Positions 38,426-47,945 of a stretch of DNA of 64,000 bases are shown here, piece by piece. The notes below the pieces were generated by a model. It saw only the letters and a list, made by a program, of their open reading frames with translations, searched no databases and was not told where the DNA came from. The stretch is from positions 1 to 64,000 of the forward strand of contig VGUH01000002.1 of NCBI GenBank assembly GCA_016874295.1, in the 5' to 3' direction. Position 1 is the stretch's first letter. Each line of letters begins with the position of its first letter. The translations under genes were made by a program, and so were the position numbers. The DNA is from Gammaproteobacteria bacterium. Lineage in GTDB: Bacteria; Pseudomonadota; Gammaproteobacteria; Steroidobacterales; Steroidobacteraceae.

Positions 38426-39286
38426 GTGACACCGGACGGCCCCCGCATCGCCGCGATCGAATCCCTGCTCGCCTGCCCGGAATGCCGCGACCCGCTCTCG
38501 GTCGGCCCCGACTGGATCCGCTGCGAGAGCTGCGACGCGCGCTACCCGATCGATGACGGCGTCGCGCTGCTTGCGCTGCGCGGCGGCTCCGAGACCTGGG
38601 GCGTGGCGCAGGACGCCCTGCAGGGCACGGAATACCAGGCCGAGTTCCAGGACATCGCGCAGGCCGCCGAGTACAACCTCCAGTTCCGCCGCCGCCCGCT
38701 CAAGCTCGGTGTGACACCGCGCGAGTCGCGGCTGATCCGCCGGTGCATCCGGCAGGTCGGCCGCTCGCATGCCATCCTCGAGATCCCCTGCGGCGGCGGG
38801 CGGCTGACGCCCGCCTTCGCGGATGCGACGGACCTCGTGATCGAGGCCGACATCGCGATCGGCCAGGTCCTCTATGGCAGGAAGGCCTCGCAGGCAACGG
38901 TGCCACGCGTGTGGATGACCGCCTCCGCCTTCCACATCCCGCTTCGCGACCGGAGCGTCGACGGCGTCATCTGCGTGCGCCTTTCGCACCACCTGCCGAC
39001 GGCAGCGGAGCGCGAGCGGCTCTTTGCCGAGGTGATGCGCGTATCCAGCCGCTTCGCGATCGTCACGTACTTCGACAGGCACTCGCTCAAGCACCTGACC
39101 TGGCGGCTGCGCCACCCGTTCAGCCGCAAGGCGAGGAAACCCGCGCTCTCGAAGTCGGAAGTCGCCAGCCTGGCCGAGGCCAATGGCGCGCGGCTCGTTT
39201 CAAACGAGCCGCTGTCGCGCTTTGGCTCGGGGCATCGCTACGCGCTGCTCGTCAGGGACCCGGGCTCCAGCCCAGCACGAGGATGA
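38426..39286 (+). CDS. SAM-dependent methyltransferase with Trm112-like zinc ribbon
   Basis: 286 residues with GTG start. The N-terminal zinc ribbon (LACPECRDPLSVGPDWIRCE SC...RYPID, two CxxC pairs) is followed by a class I methyltransferase core: motif I ILEIPCGGGRLTPAFAD and VICVRLSHHLP. The Trm112-like ribbon plus methyltransferase layout occurs in ubiquinone/menaquinone-type and rRNA-modifying enzymes. Substrate unknown. It overlaps the convergent transporter gene by 35 bases, and lies 15 bases downstream of the Omp85-type gene, probably in one transcription unit. Confidence 0.82.
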   Translation: MTPDGPRIAAIESLLACPECRDPLSVGPDWIRCESCDARYPIDDGVALLALRGGSETWGVAQDALQGTEYQAEFQDIAQAAEYNLQFRRRPLKLGVTPRESRLIRRCIRQVGRSHAILEIPCGGGRLTPAFADATDLVIEADIAIGQVLYGRKASQATVPRVWMTASAFHIPLRDRSVDGVICVRLSHHLPTAAERERLFAEVMRVSSRFAIVTYFDRHSLKHLTWRLRHPFSRKARKPALSKSEVASLAEANGARLVSNEPLSRFGSGHRYALLVRDPGSSPARG

Positions 39287-40415
39287 GCGCCGCGAATCCC
39301 GCGACGTAGGCGACGGCGACCGGCCAGCCCTCGCGCAGCCAGCGCCCGGTCGAGCGCGCCTCGGGATACATGCTGGAGATCGCGACGCCGGCCGACGAGC
39401 CGAACCAGAGCATCGAGCCGCCGTAACCGACGGCATAGGCGAGCACGCCCCAGTCGTAGCCGCCCTGCCTGAGTGCGAGCGCCGTGAGCGGGATGTTGTC
39501 GAAGAACGCCGAGACGAAGCCGAGCGCGAGCGCGCTCTGCCAGGACGGATCCGGCAGCGACTGCACGGGCATCAACGAGGCGGTGGCGACCAGGCACAGC
39601 AGGAACAACGAGCCCTTCATCGCGCCCGGCAGGATGCGCCAGTCCGGCCGGCGCCACGCGGCGGTCACGACGATGGCGAGCGCGACCGCGCTGCCGATGA
39701 ACGGGAAGCGCCCGGCTTGATCGGGGTGCGTGGCGTTCACGCCGACATTCACCGACACGGCGCTCGCGAGTATGAGGCCGACGATCGCGACCCGCGCCCA
39801 GTCGACGTGCAGCGACGGCTCCGTGTCCTTGATGATCGGCGCGAAGCGCTGCTGCGCGCGCGCCGCCGGCACCCCGAAGACCACGAGCGCGACGGCAGCA
39901 GCAATGTAGGCGTGCAGTACGGCGAGCGGCGACACGCCGCTGATCCACATCATGGTGGTCGTGGTATCGCCGATCACGCTGCCCGCGCCGCCCGCATTGG
40001 CGGCCGCGACGATGGCTGCGAGGTAGCCGACCCGCACGCGCCCTCGGAACAGGGTGTGCGCCATCGCGCCGCCGATCAGCGCGGCCGCGATGTTGTCGAG
40101 GAAGCCGGAGACGACGAACACGATCGCGAGCAGCGCGAGCGCCCCGGTCCAGTCGTCCGGCAGGTAGTTCGGCATCGCCTTTGGCAGGCCGCTTTCCTCG
40201 AAGTGCGCCGCAAGCAGCGCGAAGCCGACCAGCAGCAGGAAGAGATTCACCAGGATCACCCACTCGTGGGCGACGTGGGCGGCGAAGTCGACGACGGGCC
40301 ACTGCCAGGCCATGACGGCGGCGAGCCCCGTCGCGGCGATCGGCAGCGCGCGGCGATGGAAGATCGCGACGCCCGCGAGCGTCGCACCGAAGATCAGGAA
40401 TTCGACCGGAGGCAA
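39252..40415 (-). CDS. CitMHS/NhaD-type ion or dicarboxylate transporter
   Basis: A 387-residue inner-membrane protein with about 11 transmembrane helices and the inverted-repeat pattern of the IT superfamily. SGFLDNIAAALIGGAMAH and SAFFDNIPLTALAL are the two matching DN-containing re-entrant motifs, and AANAGGAGSVIGDTTTTMMW is the NhaD/CitM signature. Likely a Na+/H+ antiporter or Na+-coupled carboxylate carrier. It follows the amidohydrolase gene without a gap (stop at 40416, start at 40415), so it is cotranscribed with it and could export or import that enzyme's substrate. Confidence 0.82.
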   Translation of the reverse strand: MPPVEFLIFGATLAGVAIFHRRALPIAATGLAAVMAWQWPVVDFAAHVAHEWVILVNLFLLLVGFALLAAHFEESGLPKAMPNYLPDDWTGALALLAIVFVVSGFLDNIAAALIGGAMAHTLFRGRVRVGYLAAIVAAANAGGAGSVIGDTTTTMMWISGVSPLAVLHAYIAAAVALVVFGVPAARAQQRFAPIIKDTEPSLHVDWARVAIVGLILASAVSVNVGVNATHPDQAGRFPFIGSAVALAIVVTAAWRRPDWRILPGAMKGSLFLLCLVATASLMPVQSLPDPSWQSALALGFVSAFFDNIPLTALALRQGGYDWGVLAYAVGYGGSMLWFGSSAGVAISSMYPEARSTGRWLREGWPVAVAYVAGFAALILVLGWSPGP

Positions 40416-43664: not shown

Positions 43665-44057
43665 CTACGGCAGCTGGATGCCGCCCTTCCCGCCCATGCT
43701 CTTGAGGCCGGCGGCCGTGCCCGCATCCGGAATCACGATCGACGACGCCGCCTGGCGGCGCAGTTCCTGCAGCTCGCGCGCTGCTTCATCGATCGCCTGC
43801 TGGGCCGCCGGGCCGAATTGCGCGACCGCCTCGGCCAGCGTGCTCGCCGGCAATTCGAACGAGAGCGGCAGCGAGCCCATGGGCGTCATGATCGTCGCCT
43901 GGCCGATGAACAGGACCGCGCGCGACGGATCGTCGCTGCCGTCGGACTTCACGGGCGTCATGCGCCGGACCGTGCCGACGCGCTGGTCGGTGAACACGTC
44001 CTCGCGGTACAGCGCGTCCGCGCTCATCCGCGCATCCATGGGCTTCTCGGTGCTCAT
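43665..44057 (-). CDS. Conserved-looking hypothetical cytoplasmic protein
   Basis: 130 residues from ATG 44057 (MSTEKPMDARMSADALYRED). Beta-rich centre with VFTDQRVGTVRRMTPV and VLFIGQATIMTPMGSLPLSF, then an amphipathic helix STLAEAVAQFGPAAQQAIDE and a Gly/Lys tail. No signal peptide or membrane segment. I do not recognise the family. Its start is 20 bases downstream of the LOG gene end on the same strand, so it is probably the last gene of the ppc-LOG unit. Confidence 0.65.
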   Translation of the reverse strand: MSTEKPMDARMSADALYREDVFTDQRVGTVRRMTPVKSDGSDDPSRAVLFIGQATIMTPMGSLPLSFELPASTLAEAVAQFGPAAQQAIDEAARELQELRRQAASSIVIPDAGTAAGLKSMGGKGGIQLP

Positions 44058-44076
44058 AAGGGCGATTTTATCCGAA

Positions 44077-44637
44077 TCAGCGTATCGCCGCGAAATCGAT
44101 CGCCGGCAGCACGCCCTCGGGACCCGCCACGACCGTCCACACCGCCACGGGGCCCGCGTCCATAAACCGCTGGTCGATCGCCGCCCGAAGCTGCGCGAGC
44201 AGCGCATCGTAGTAGCCGCGCGTGTTGACGATCACGATCGGTCCGCTGAACAGCCCGAGGCGCTTCAGCGTCACCGCCTCGAACAGCTCCTCGAGCGTCC
44301 CGGTGCCGCCCGGCAGCGCGACCACCGCCGAGGCGCGCGTCAGCATCTCGTGCTTGCGCGTGCGCATGTCCTCGACCACGTGCAGCTCCGTCAGGTCGTC
44401 ATGGCCCCACTCGAGGTCGACCATGAAGCGCGGGATCACGCCGACGATGCGCCCGCCCGCGGCGAGCGCACCCTCGGCGAGCGCGCCCATCAAGCCTGCG
44501 CGCCCGCCGCCGTAGACGACCGTGCACCCTGCAGATGCGAGCAGCCGGCCGAGTGCGCGGGCAGTCTCGCGATAGGCGTCGTCGCTGGCCTCGCTGGAGC
44601 CGCAGTACACGCAGACGCTGCGCGGCTCCGCAGCCAT
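44077..44637 (-). CDS. LOG-family nucleoside monophosphate phosphoribohydrolase
   Basis: A 186-residue protein. SVCVYCGSSEASDDAYRETA, VVYGGGRAGLMGALAEGALA and the signature PGGTGTLEELFEAVT with the MRTRKHEM motif define the LOG (formerly lysine decarboxylase-like) family. These cleave the N-glycosidic bond of nucleoside 5'-monophosphates and, in cytokinin-making species, activate cytokinin ribotides. The ATG overlaps the stop of ppc (ATGA at 44637), an unusual coupling. Most bacterial members act in nucleotide salvage or clean-up; the true substrate is not clear here. Confidence 0.88.
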   Translation of the reverse strand: MAAEPRSVCVYCGSSEASDDAYRETARALGRLLASAGCTVVYGGGRAGLMGALAEGALAAGGRIVGVIPRFMVDLEWGHDDLTELHVVEDMRTRKHEMLTRASAVVALPGGTGTLEELFEAVTLKRLGLFSGPIVIVNTRGYYDALLAQLRAAIDQRFMDAGPVAVWTVVAGPEGVLPAIDFAAIR

Positions 44638-47357
44638 CAGCCGGTCGCCTGCAGCGCGAGCGCGATCCCGGATACGCTCGCGAGCAGCGCCTCGAAGATC
44701 GCCGTGTCCTCGCGCCCGCCGGCGCGCCAGCGGCGCAGCAGGTCCACTTGCATCAGGTGCATCGGGTCGCCATAGGGAGCACGCAGTACCGTCGAGCGCT
44801 GCAGTGCCGGGCGGCGATCGAGCAGCTCCTGGCCGCCCTGGATCTCGGTGAGCCAGCGCTTCGCGAGCGCGTGCTCGCGCCGGATCTCGGCGCCGATGCC
44901 GGCTGCGCCGTCGCCCGCGAGCGCCTCGTAGTGCGCGGCGATGTCGAGGTCCGCGCGCACCAGGTCGAGCTCCACGTCGTCGAGCAGCTTCGCGAGAAAG
45001 GCCCAGTCGGCCGCTGCGCCCCGGATCGCCTCGATGCCATGCTCGCGCGCGGCGGCCTCGAGCCCGGTGCCGATGCCGTACCAGCCGGGGAGCACGTGGC
45101 GGCTCTGCATCCAGGCGTAGACCCACGGCACGGGCCGCATCGCGGCGACGCCCTCGCGGGCACGTCCGGCGACGCGCCCGCCGATGTGCATCCGCTCGAT
45201 CACGTCGATCGGCGTCACGTCGCGAAAGAAGCACGGGAACTCCGGGCGCTCGTGCATCAGCGCGCGATAACGCGCGGCGCTCGCCGCGGCGATGCTGCCC
45301 ATCAGCGCGTGCAGCTCCCGCTCGCGTGCCGCCGCGCGCGGCTGCTCGATGCGGTCCATCGCGACCGCGAACACCGCCTTCTCGAAGCTGCGCAACGCGA
45401 TGCGCCTGAGGCCGTAGCCGTTGCCGATGCCCTCGCCCTGCTCGGTCGCTCGCAGCCGCCCGCGCGTCGCGCCGTCCGGCGCGTCCTCGACCAGCTGCTC
45501 GATCGGCCCGCCGCCGCGGCTCGAAGGCCCGCCGCGGCCGTAGAACAGCGCGAGGTCGACGCCGGCCCCGGCCGCGGCCGCGACCAGCTCGACCTGGGCC
45601 TGGTAGATCGCGTGCCGCGAGGCCGCGATGCCGGCCTCCTGGTTGCTCTCGGAATAGCCGAGCAGCACGGACTGCCGGCCCCCGCGGGCGGCGAGGTGCC
45701 GCCGGTAGCTCGGCTCGGCGAGCAGCGACTTCAGCACGCCGCCCGCGCCCTCGAGCGCCGCCATGGACTCGAGCGCGGGCACGATGTCGATCGGCACCTC
45801 GCCGACTGCGCGATCGGTGATGTCGGCCCAGCGCGCGAGCAGCAGCACGGACAGCACGTCGTCCGCGGACTCCGTGCCGCTCACCACGTAGTCGCCGACC
45901 GCCCGCTCGCCGAACTTGCTGCGGCCCTGGATCATCGCCTCGAACACCGCGAGCGTGCGCCGGCCGGTCGCATCGAAGCCGGCGGCAGGGCCGCGGTCGC
46001 GCGTGATCGAGTCGCACAGCGCGCGGCTGCGCGCCTCCGGGGCGAGACCTTCCCAGTCCGGCCGGCCGAGGCCCTGCGCCACGACCTCGCGGTGCACCGA
46101 GGCGTGCTGGCGCACGTCGAGCGTCGCGAGATGGAAGCCGAAGGTGAGCGCCCGGCACAGCAGGCGCTCGACCGGAAACAGGCCCGCGTGCCGCCCGTGA
46201 TTGGCCGCGAGGCTCGCCGCGACCAGCTGGATGTCGCGCACGAACTGGTCCGCGGACTCGTAGTGGTTCGGCCGGCCCTCGTAGGTGATGCGCAGCCGCT
46301 CCGCCACTTGGCCGAGGAAAATCCGGTAAGGCATGCGGTCGTGGCGGGTCGAAGCGGCCTCGCGCGCCTTGGGCAGCAGGATGTCGTACTCGGCGATGCG
46401 CGCCTCAAGCTCGCGGCTCGCGCCGACCCGCCCCGCGCTCTGCGAGAGCTTCTCTGCGAGCGCCTGGCACTCCTGGAAGTAGGCCGAGATCACGCGCTGC
46501 TGCTGGCGCAGCAGCGTTTCGCGGATCGACTTCGCGTGCACCTCGTCGTTGCCGTCCATGTCGCCGCCCACCCAGCTGCCGAAGCGCAGCACGAGCGGCA
46601 TGCGCCCGAGCTCGGGCGGCGTCCCGAACACGGCCTGCATCCAGAGCGCGATCTCCTCGTACAGAGCCGGCACCACGCGGTAGACGACCTCGGCGAGATA
46701 GAAGAGCGCGTGCTCACGCTCGTCCGCGACGGTGAGGCGCTCGCGCGGGTGCGCCTCGGTCTGCCACCCCGAGGTGACCTCCATGCGGATGCGCTCCCAG
46801 ACCGAGCGGCGCTCGAACGGCGTCAGCGTCGGGTCGAGGCGCTCGAGCATCATGTCGGCGATCTGCTGGTGCTTGCGCAGGATCGTGCGCCGCGCGGACT
46901 CGGTGGGGTGCGCGGTAAAGACCGGATGGATCGTGACGCCGGAAAGCAGTTCGAGCACCTTCTGCGCGTCGTAGCCGGCGCGCTTCAGCTTGTGCATGCA
47001 GTCGCCAATGCCGCCCGGCTGCGGCCGCTCGCTGTGCAGGAGGTATTCGCGCCGGCGGCGGACGCGATGCACGCGCTCGGCGAGATTCACCACCTCGAAC
47101 CACGTGCTGAAGGCCCGGATCAGGTCGCGCGCCTCGCCGGGCCCGCGTCCCGCGGTACGCGCCACCAGTTCGACCGCGCTCTCCGCCCGGCCTTCGCGCC
47201 GGCCGATCGCGGCCAGCCGGTCCCCCTCGACCAGGCTGAAGAGCCGTTCGCCGCCCTGGTCGCGCAGCACTTCGCCGACCAAGCCGCCGAGCGCGTGCAC
47301 GTCTTCGCGGAGCGCCGCGTCCTTTTCCGGGAACTGCAGGTTCTGGCGCTGAATCAA
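44637..47357 (-). CDS. ppc: Phosphoenolpyruvate carboxylase, with unusual active-site substitutions
   Basis: A 906-residue PEPC: TAHPTESARR (catalytic H150), RFGSWVGGDMDGN, LATLDVRQHAS, LLGYSESNQEAGIAAS, LFYGRGGPSSRGGGP and a final LALQATG. It carboxylates PEP to oxaloacetate, refilling the TCA cycle. Three positions differ from canonical enzymes: the Lys of GYSDSxKDAG (E. coli K546) is Q573, the His of FHGRGG (H579) is Y606, and the C-terminal NTG reads ATG. The arginines (R608, R614) that bind PEP are kept. Length is normal. The enzyme may therefore be kinetically altered or have another role. It is upstream of, and coupled to, the LOG gene. Confidence 0.88.
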   Translation of the reverse strand: MIQRQNLQFPEKDAALREDVHALGGLVGEVLRDQGGERLFSLVEGDRLAAIGRREGRAESAVELVARTAGRGPGEARDLIRAFSTWFEVVNLAERVHRVRRRREYLLHSERPQPGGIGDCMHKLKRAGYDAQKVLELLSGVTIHPVFTAHPTESARRTILRKHQQIADMMLERLDPTLTPFERRSVWERIRMEVTSGWQTEAHPRERLTVADEREHALFYLAEVVYRVVPALYEEIALWMQAVFGTPPELGRMPLVLRFGSWVGGDMDGNDEVHAKSIRETLLRQQQRVISAYFQECQALAEKLSQSAGRVGASRELEARIAEYDILLPKAREAASTRHDRMPYRIFLGQVAERLRITYEGRPNHYESADQFVRDIQLVAASLAANHGRHAGLFPVERLLCRALTFGFHLATLDVRQHASVHREVVAQGLGRPDWEGLAPEARSRALCDSITRDRGPAAGFDATGRRTLAVFEAMIQGRSKFGERAVGDYVVSGTESADDVLSVLLLARWADITDRAVGEVPIDIVPALESMAALEGAGGVLKSLLAEPSYRRHLAARGGRQSVLLGYSESNQEAGIAASRHAIYQAQVELVAAAAGAGVDLALFYGRGGPSSRGGGPIEQLVEDAPDGATRGRLRATEQGEGIGNGYGLRRIALRSFEKAVFAVAMDRIEQPRAAARERELHALMGSIAAASAARYRALMHERPEFPCFFRDVTPIDVIERMHIGGRVAGRAREGVAAMRPVPWVYAWMQSRHVLPGWYGIGTGLEAAAREHGIEAIRGAAADWAFLAKLLDDVELDLVRADLDIAAHYEALAGDGAAGIGAEIRREHALAKRWLTEIQGGQELLDRRPALQRSTVLRAPYGDPMHLMQVDLLRRWRAGGREDTAIFEALLASVSGIALALQATG

Positions 47358-47378
47358 GCATTCACCCGCGAGCAGCGC

Positions 47379-47861
47379 TCAGTGATGATGGCCGCCCGGC
47401 CCGTGCACGTGCCCGTGCGAGACTTCCTCGTGAGTCGCACGGCGCACATCGGCCACTTCGACCGAAAAACGCAGCGTGCGACCGGCCAGCGGATGGTTGC
47501 CGTCCAGCGTGACGAAGTCCCGCTCGACCTTCACCACCGACACGATTCGCGCGCCGCGCGCGCCGCTGGTCCGCAGCTGCATCCCGGGAGCGAGCTCGGT
47601 TCCCGCGGGAAAGCGGCTGCGCGGCACGATCTCCACGAGTCGCTCGTCGCGCAGCCCGTAGCCCTGCTCCGGCGCCACGGTGACGTCCAGCTTGTCGCCG
47701 GCACCGCGGCCGTCGAGCGCGCGCTCGAGGCCCGGGACGATGTTGCCCTTGCCGTGCAGGTAGGCGAGCGGACCGCGACCGCTCGAGGAATCGATCACGG
47801 CACCCTGTTCGTCGCGCAGCGTGTAGTGGATGGTCACGACCTTGTTCCTGGCAATCTGCAC
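47379..47861 (-). CDS. slyD: FKBP-type peptidyl-prolyl isomerase (SlyD-like)
   Basis: 160 residues: VVTIHYTLRDEQGAVIDSSS, GPLAYLHGKGNIVPGLERAL and an insert-in-flap chaperone domain, then a tail ending GHVHGPGGHHH. The His-rich tail is the nickel-binding feature of SlyD, shortened here. It acts as a cytoplasmic prolyl isomerase and chaperone for maturation of metalloenzymes. ATG 47861, a monocistron 21 bases upstream of ppc on the same strand. Confidence 0.87.
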   Translation of the reverse strand: MQIARNKVVTIHYTLRDEQGAVIDSSSGRGPLAYLHGKGNIVPGLERALDGRGAGDKLDVTVAPEQGYGLRDERLVEIVPRSRFPAGTELAPGMQLRTSGARGARIVSVVKVERDFVTLDGNHPLAGRTLRFSVEVADVRRATHEEVSHGHVHGPGGHHH

Positions 47862-47945
47862 GGTGCCTCCGGCGCGGCTGGCGGACGCGCATGTTAGCGC
47901 CTTGGTGCCGTGCGCGGAACCGCGAGACCCCGTAATTGAATGCGG

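Follow-up and report, generated by a model that had tools for sequence, protein, structure and literature searches.

Recurrent erosion of catalytic residues in the phosphoenolpyruvate carboxylase of Steroidobacteraceae, a candidate pseudoenzyme

The stretch of DNA analysed here (the window: 64,000 nucleotides, positions 1 to 64,000 of contig VGUH01000002.1, assembly GCA_016874295.1) comes from a gammaproteobacterium of the family Steroidobacteraceae and encodes a homologue of phosphoenolpyruvate (PEP) carboxylase (PEPC) with replaced active-site residues. The locus raises the question of whether such a protein is still a PEP carboxylase or is kept for some other purpose. The open reading frame at 44637-47357 on the minus strand is a real gene of 906 amino acids with a TTG start, a stop codon at 44637-44639 and a third-position GC content of 0.94, in a window of 66% GC. 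Its product passes the gathering test of PF00311 (715.2 bits against 22.4, profile positions 1-919 of 919) and falls short of the equivalog model NCBIfam NF000584 / PRK00009 (717.3 bits, below the curated cut-off of 815, the canonical orthologues of the order not having been scored alongside). The first-pass annotation of the gene had proposed changed kinetics, aspartate insensitivity or loss of activity; these were the right candidates, but they had been framed as the peculiarity of one protein, and the window copy proves to be one stage of a recurrent erosion on the scale of the family.

Residue changes in the window protein

Residues were assigned by alignment with E. coli K-12 Ppc, whose numbering is used for the reference positions. 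The gene and the positions that matter, all on the minus strand, are as follows.

44637..47357, minus strand: PEP carboxylase homologue, 906 aa, TTG start (PF00311, PRK00009)
46896..46916, minus strand: TAHPTES motif, kept, with H150 (codon 46908-46910) at E. coli H138
45768..45770, minus strand: E530 at E. coli E506, kept
45648..45650, minus strand: E570 at E. coli D543
45639..45641, minus strand: Q573 (CAG) at E. coli K546
45540..45542, minus strand: Y606 (TAC) at E. coli H579
45507..45542, minus strand: loop YGRGGPSSRGGG, in E. coli HGRGGSIGRGGA, with R608 and R614 retained
45417..45419, minus strand: G647 at E. coli K620
44955..44957, minus strand: R801 at E. coli K773
44646..44648, minus strand: A904 (GCG) at E. 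coli N881 of the C-terminal NTG

Ten catalytic positions were scored, of which the window copy retains seven (H138, R396, E506, R581, R587, R699 and R713), with D543, K546 and H579 changed; R832 is retained in addition. The catalytic histidine of the TAHPTE motif is present as H150. The motif GYSDSxKDxG, which carries D543 and K546, reads GYSESNQEAG, and FHGRGGxxGRGG reads FYGRGGPSSRGG, so that its histidine is lost and both arginines, R608 and R614 (E. coli R581 and R587), are retained; in the same loop GSIG has become GPSS, giving GRGGPSSRGG. We take K546 to act on bicarbonate, E506 and D543 to bind the metal, and K773 and N881 to serve aspartate control in E. coli Ppc, with R832 and R587 presumably also among the residues of aspartate inhibition. 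On this assignment of roles, and by sequence alone, one of the two metal-ligand carboxylates is retained (E506 as E530) and the other is now E570. The aspartate-inhibited type of enzyme has K773, R832, N881 and R587, which here are R801, R859, A904 and R614, two of the four being changed. The alignment bears out the earlier reading of Q573, Y606 and ATG in place of NTG, as well as the retention of H150, R608 and R614; E570, G647, R801 and the change of GSIG to GPSS had been missed.

Neither Gln nor Tyr occurs at the K546 and H579 positions among 16 type B PEPCs of the family (L035-L050, defined below), 12 from other families in the class (L140-L151) and E. coli. Among the six members of the genus with the region, the window's included, Q573 is unique to the window copy, and a sequencing error is conceivable there. 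Y606 is shared with the closest relative, L003, which argues against an error at that position. An AlphaFold2 model of the window protein from a four-row alignment reached a pLDDT of 41.7 and a pTM of 0.30 and was not used.

Distribution and repeated origin of the eroded copies

The family sample comprises 100 genomes, the window's own included, with family code f1 taken as Steroidobacteraceae (L, G and f numbers are our identifiers of sequences, genomes and families). A PEPC match was found in 93 genomes. In 92 there is a PEPC 48-75% identical to the window protein, here called type A, and the nearest named relative is L032, from a Steroidobacteraceae metagenome-assembled genome, at 75%. Other PEPCs, 32-37% identical to the window protein, occur in 21 genomes; the 16 complete ones are type B, four non-type-A sequences (L051-L054) look different from type B, and G081 has type B without type A. 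The type A set consists of 90 fetched sequences, one per genome, without the partial hits of G024 and G025. The PEPC of the window is the vertically inherited PEPC of Steroidobacteraceae.

Within type A the catalytic residues are eroded to very different degrees. After 7 gapped rows of the 90 had been dropped, all ten scored residues were found in 22 of 83 copies, or in 36 of 83 if swaps between D and E and between K and R are allowed; at least one is lost in 61 of 83 (47 of 83 with such swaps forgiven). D543 is kept in just under half of the rows (42/89), being replaced by E in 27, A in 10, H in 5, and S, G, Y, R and T in one each. Retention is higher at K546 (67/89), H579 (78/89), R699 (75/89) and R713 (76/88). 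H138 is kept in all 86 rows with the position, W248 in at least 98% of sequences from the family, and N881 is Asn in none of 86. The carboxylate E506 is Asp in 16 tree rows, all with a changed D543 (E in 13), as if the two carboxylates swap. The type B PEPCs are canonical at the ten positions and at N881 in 16 of 16. The genus of the window offers a graded series, from ten residues in L006 and L007 through nine in L004 and L005 (D543E) and eight in L003 (plus H579Y) to seven in the window copy (plus K546Q). A lineage-wide variant, considered in the first-pass annotation, is thus found as far as the erosion itself is concerned, but the exact pair of Gln and Tyr is rare. A further type A copy, L073 (G003), has a GRGG loop six residues shorter in the alignment, yet a full-length open frame.

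Outside the family, 53 more orthologues and relatives were fetched non-randomly, low-scoring and duplicate copies being taken on purpose. Neighbouring families often have canonical orthologues; in other families of the order, L119-L124 keep the ten residues and N881, and L118 has R581Q. Eroded copies were found in f15 and f12 (20 rows), f6 (2) and f4 (2), and G129, G183 and G209 each hold one eroded and one intact-looking PEPC. In a tree built without the active-site stretches, from which short rows and L190 were dropped, the type A sequences of Steroidobacteraceae fall into a single starred clade of 91 rows, which is nested among canonical PEPCs; the eroded rows of f15 and f12 form a separate clade. 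A single clade of 24 eroded rows was rejected by the approximately unbiased (AU) test (p-AU 1.6e-14), as was one eroded clade of f1 plus f15 alone (p-AU 0.0006); these tests used a quick LG+G4 tree of 39 rows chosen from 160, with groups named after the first tree. Erosion of the active site arose more than once.

A very divergent PEPC-like protein, L190 (G125), 24% identical in the best stretch, has Asp at H579; it has relatives in G112 and G136 (f14), and among these f14 proteins only the G125 copy was read.

Selection, metabolic setting and locus

The maximum-likelihood ratio of nonsynonymous to synonymous substitution rates (dN/dS) between the window gene and L003 is 0.077, with 0.090 and 0.103 for two other pairs of the genus and 0.028-0.124 for eight eroded pairs outside it. 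For reference, a type A pair that keeps the ten residues gives 0.044, two type B pairs give 0.055-0.056 and one canonical pair gives 0.067. The eroded protein is held about as tightly as active PEPC. The NG86 estimates are higher, reaching 0.20 for the close pairs listed and 0.35 (0.181/0.518) when the window gene is compared with L003; maximum likelihood was preferred because codon usage is extreme, as the third-position GC content indicates. A relative-rate check of the window protein against its genus-mates gave no consistent speed-up (it has more changes than they do with L007 as the reference, fewer with L009 and about as many with L119), and matches in the family contain no stop codons save for one short fragment match in G016. 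If a pseudoenzyme is recognised by loss of catalytic residues under purifying selection, the family clade qualifies, the degree varying widely among copies.

The site pattern was followed at 112 sites conserved across a canonical set (24 sequences, selected by residues), type B and E. coli. The 27 active-site positions among them combine 13 named before the variation was known with three signature motifs of PEPC chosen later. In the family the mean number of changes per site is 6.74 at these 27 and 4.47 at the other 85 (p=0.0013), an excess of about 1.5-fold. The f15/f12 clade gives 3.41 against 2.06 (p=0.00045), or 3.46 against 2.24 (p=0.04) for the 13 pre-named positions alone; the corresponding means in type B are 0.00 and 0.09. 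What can safely be said is that catalytic sites do not move in type B and in type A change at least as readily as other conserved sites. Residues 526-575, 601-650 and 726-750 evolve relatively faster than in canonical PEPC in both eroded clades, and stretches such as 1-25 and 276-300 relatively slower.

The genome of the window (2.37 Mb, 98.8% complete) has one PEPC. No second ppc and no type B PEPC was found in it, and a profile search gave no PYC_OADA match, so that the checks suggested in the first-pass annotation for a second ppc and a pyruvate carboxylase (PYC) both turned out negative in this genome. It does encode isocitrate lyase (C4:60280-61533), an adjoining malate synthase (C4:59134-59868) and GTP-dependent PEP carboxykinase (GTP-PEPCK). 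In the family, PYC_OADA is matched over the whole profile in 58 of 100 genomes and in any form in 72, and an isocitrate lyase model is matched in 85 of 100, some matches being weak and possibly relatives such as methylisocitrate lyase. Malic enzyme in the window's genome (G000:C21:15592-16113) gave only short matches with a TAG in frame, and the organism may be losing this link as well.

The immediate neighbours of the PEPC gene lie on the same strand.

47379..47861, minus strand: FKBP-type peptidyl-prolyl isomerase, upstream, with a 21 bp gap to the PEPC gene
44077..44706, minus strand: LOG/lysine-decarboxylase-like gene, downstream, translated stretch

The open frame of the LOG-like gene overlaps the 3' end of the PEPC gene and its start codon is provisional; of 20 other Steroidobacteraceae loci compared, 6 also have a LOG-family gene close to type A PEPC. 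Synteny in the family (a TonB/ExbD/ExbB block, an EamA transporter, the LOG gene) is loose and gives no role for PEPC. In other families, several loci have trpE-like, phosphoribosyltransferase-like, 2-hydroxyacid dehydrogenase and FtsX genes in common, again with no role indicated. Five loci from other families of the order (L213-L216, L223) have a DUF520 gene as the closest shared neighbour upstream of their canonical PEPC; this gene was not found beside eroded copies in the locus comparison. An antisense frame of 1120 codons, 44535-47897 on the plus strand, spans the entire PEPC gene and is most likely a side effect of the 94% GC content at third positions. Two nearby open frames on the minus strand, 43665-44207 and 39252-40415, have no Pfam match at E 0.001.

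Competing explanations and comparison with known systems

Because catalytic residues are repeatedly lost while the rest of the protein is under strong selection, these observations suggest that the protein may have a job other than the textbook reaction. The explanation that we hold with roughly even confidence is that carboxylase function and aspartate control are being, or have been, lost from this PEPC, which is maintained for a non-catalytic role. Selection in the family is no longer strict on the PEP, metal and bicarbonate site and on the residues of aspartate control, and the fold is still protected. With E570, Q573, Y606, G647, R801 and A904, the window copy would most likely carboxylate PEP very poorly or not at all and be free of control by aspartate. 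The retained role could be that of a protein scaffold or a ligand-binding regulator, for example, and oxaloacetate would probably come from the glyoxylate shunt or from reversed GTP-PEPCK, for which the genes are present and the flux is presumed.

Such a role may reside in the N-terminal half, a region that eroded copies conserve relatively better than active enzymes do. The ratio of changes in the C-terminal half to those in the N-terminal half is 1.24 in the family (confidence interval 1.11-1.38) and 1.10 (0.99-1.23) in f15/f12, against 0.88, 0.80 and 0.86 in three active sets. The constraint profiles of the two eroded clades correlate (rho 0.42, 0.56 and 0.49; p 0.011, 0.0004 and 0.003, with differing reference sets), the control correlations being 0.31 (p 0.06) and 0.23 (p 0.18); this is support for, not proof of, a shared non-catalytic constraint. 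Tentatively, an old, unrecognised second function in the N-terminal half of the PEPC of these Gammaproteobacteria may underlie the pattern. Conserved pseudoenzymes that keep it, and have shed carboxylation and allosteric control, would then have arisen in three or more lineages (Steroidobacteraceae, with f4 or without it; f15/f12; f6).

Several points weigh against a non-catalytic role. The 22 copies with all ten residues include the genus-mates L006 and L007, and a metal site may have been maintained, given that D543 is changed wherever E506D occurs. The first count of changes at catalytic and other sites (10.06 against 3.00) was inflated, its site list having been drawn after the variation was seen, and at the 13 pre-named positions alone the excess in the family is small and falls short of significance (5.85 against 4.91, p=0.09). 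The split between N- and C-terminal halves at 475/476 was likewise picked after the profile had been seen, and a fourth pairing of profiles is not significant (rho 0.27, p 0.11). Any partner or binding function is hypothetical. Intact copies make up 19 of 59 in genomes with full-length PYC or type B and 3 of 24 in those with neither, the opposite of simple displacement; PYC is present in families with canonical PEPC and in just 3 of 18 f15 genomes searched.

PYC was therefore rejected as a sufficient cause of erosion by displacement: genomes that lack both full-length PYC and type B show no higher share of intact copies, and PYC occurs beside canonical PEPC.

It is less likely, but quite possible, that the protein is an active PEP carboxylase with altered kinetics, in which E570 coordinates the metal in place of D543, the enzyme works despite Q573 and Y606, and insensitivity to aspartate and malate follows from the loss of K620, K773 and N881. 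The seven residues left in the window copy and the ten in L006 and L007 agree with this, as do the strong purifying selection and the position of the protein as sole PEPC in a genome without a pyruvate carboxylase match; the K620S variant of the E. coli enzyme is malate-insensitive yet active, being used as a working enzyme in PMC12104201. However, three of ten catalytic positions have changed together, His579 is, with His138 and Arg587, among the residues described as important for E. coli catalysis in PMC11832675, and other genera have A, H, S, T, G, Y or R in place of D543. The constancy of H138 (86/86) and W248 while D543 drifts, together with E506D solely alongside a changed D543, could also reflect another reaction on a PEP-like substrate, which would need H138, W248 and the arginines but have retuned ligands for bicarbonate and metal. 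This is improbable, as the replacements vary by genus, which leaves no single new active site, and H138 itself is lost in five fetched copies of f15 and f6. That the gene is a decaying pseudogene or an assembly error of the window's genome is suggested by the confinement of Q573 to that genome within the genus, but it is very unlikely given the intact frame of 906 codons, the low dN/dS against L003, the near absence of stop codons in family matches and the presence of Y606 in L003 too.

The erosion bears on how genomes are read. PEPC is a textbook enzyme, part of central metabolism, and a match to PF00311 is easily taken as anaplerotic CO2 fixation; with 61 of 83 copies eroded, such readings would become unreliable. 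The graded series from ten to seven residues within one genus lets the importance of single residues and other roles of the protein be tested. The first-pass annotation had held that its own proposal would be refuted by a large clade sharing these residues and made up of enzymes proven active: the clade is large, and the open-licence literature among the matches listed holds no biochemistry of it. The same literature, to which the search was confined, with subscription literature outside its scope, contains among the matches listed no report of a pseudoenzyme PEPC clade or of Steroidobacteraceae PEPC, and none of a second function of a bacterial PEPC, which if true would be new.

Among known systems, the repeatedly evolved pseudonucleases of the Dis3/RNase II family (PMC8097288) likewise combine repeated loss of catalysis with retention of the protein; they differ in deriving from a eukaryotic nuclease and in having RNA binding stated as the retained role, the counterpart in PEPC being presumptive. 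E. coli Ppc (PDB 1fiy, 1jqn, 1qb4) is of the same family over nearly the full length (E 4.3e-92, query residues 11-906), and the window protein departs from it by D543E, K546Q, H579Y, K620G, K773R and N881A. The canonical orthologues of the order (L119-L124, L208-L211) belong to the same larger clade as the window protein, L119-L124 being 47-49% identical to it in the best tblastn stretch, but unlike it they have the ten scored residues and N881 intact. The type B PEPCs share the host family and form a separate clade, 32-34% identical to the window protein.

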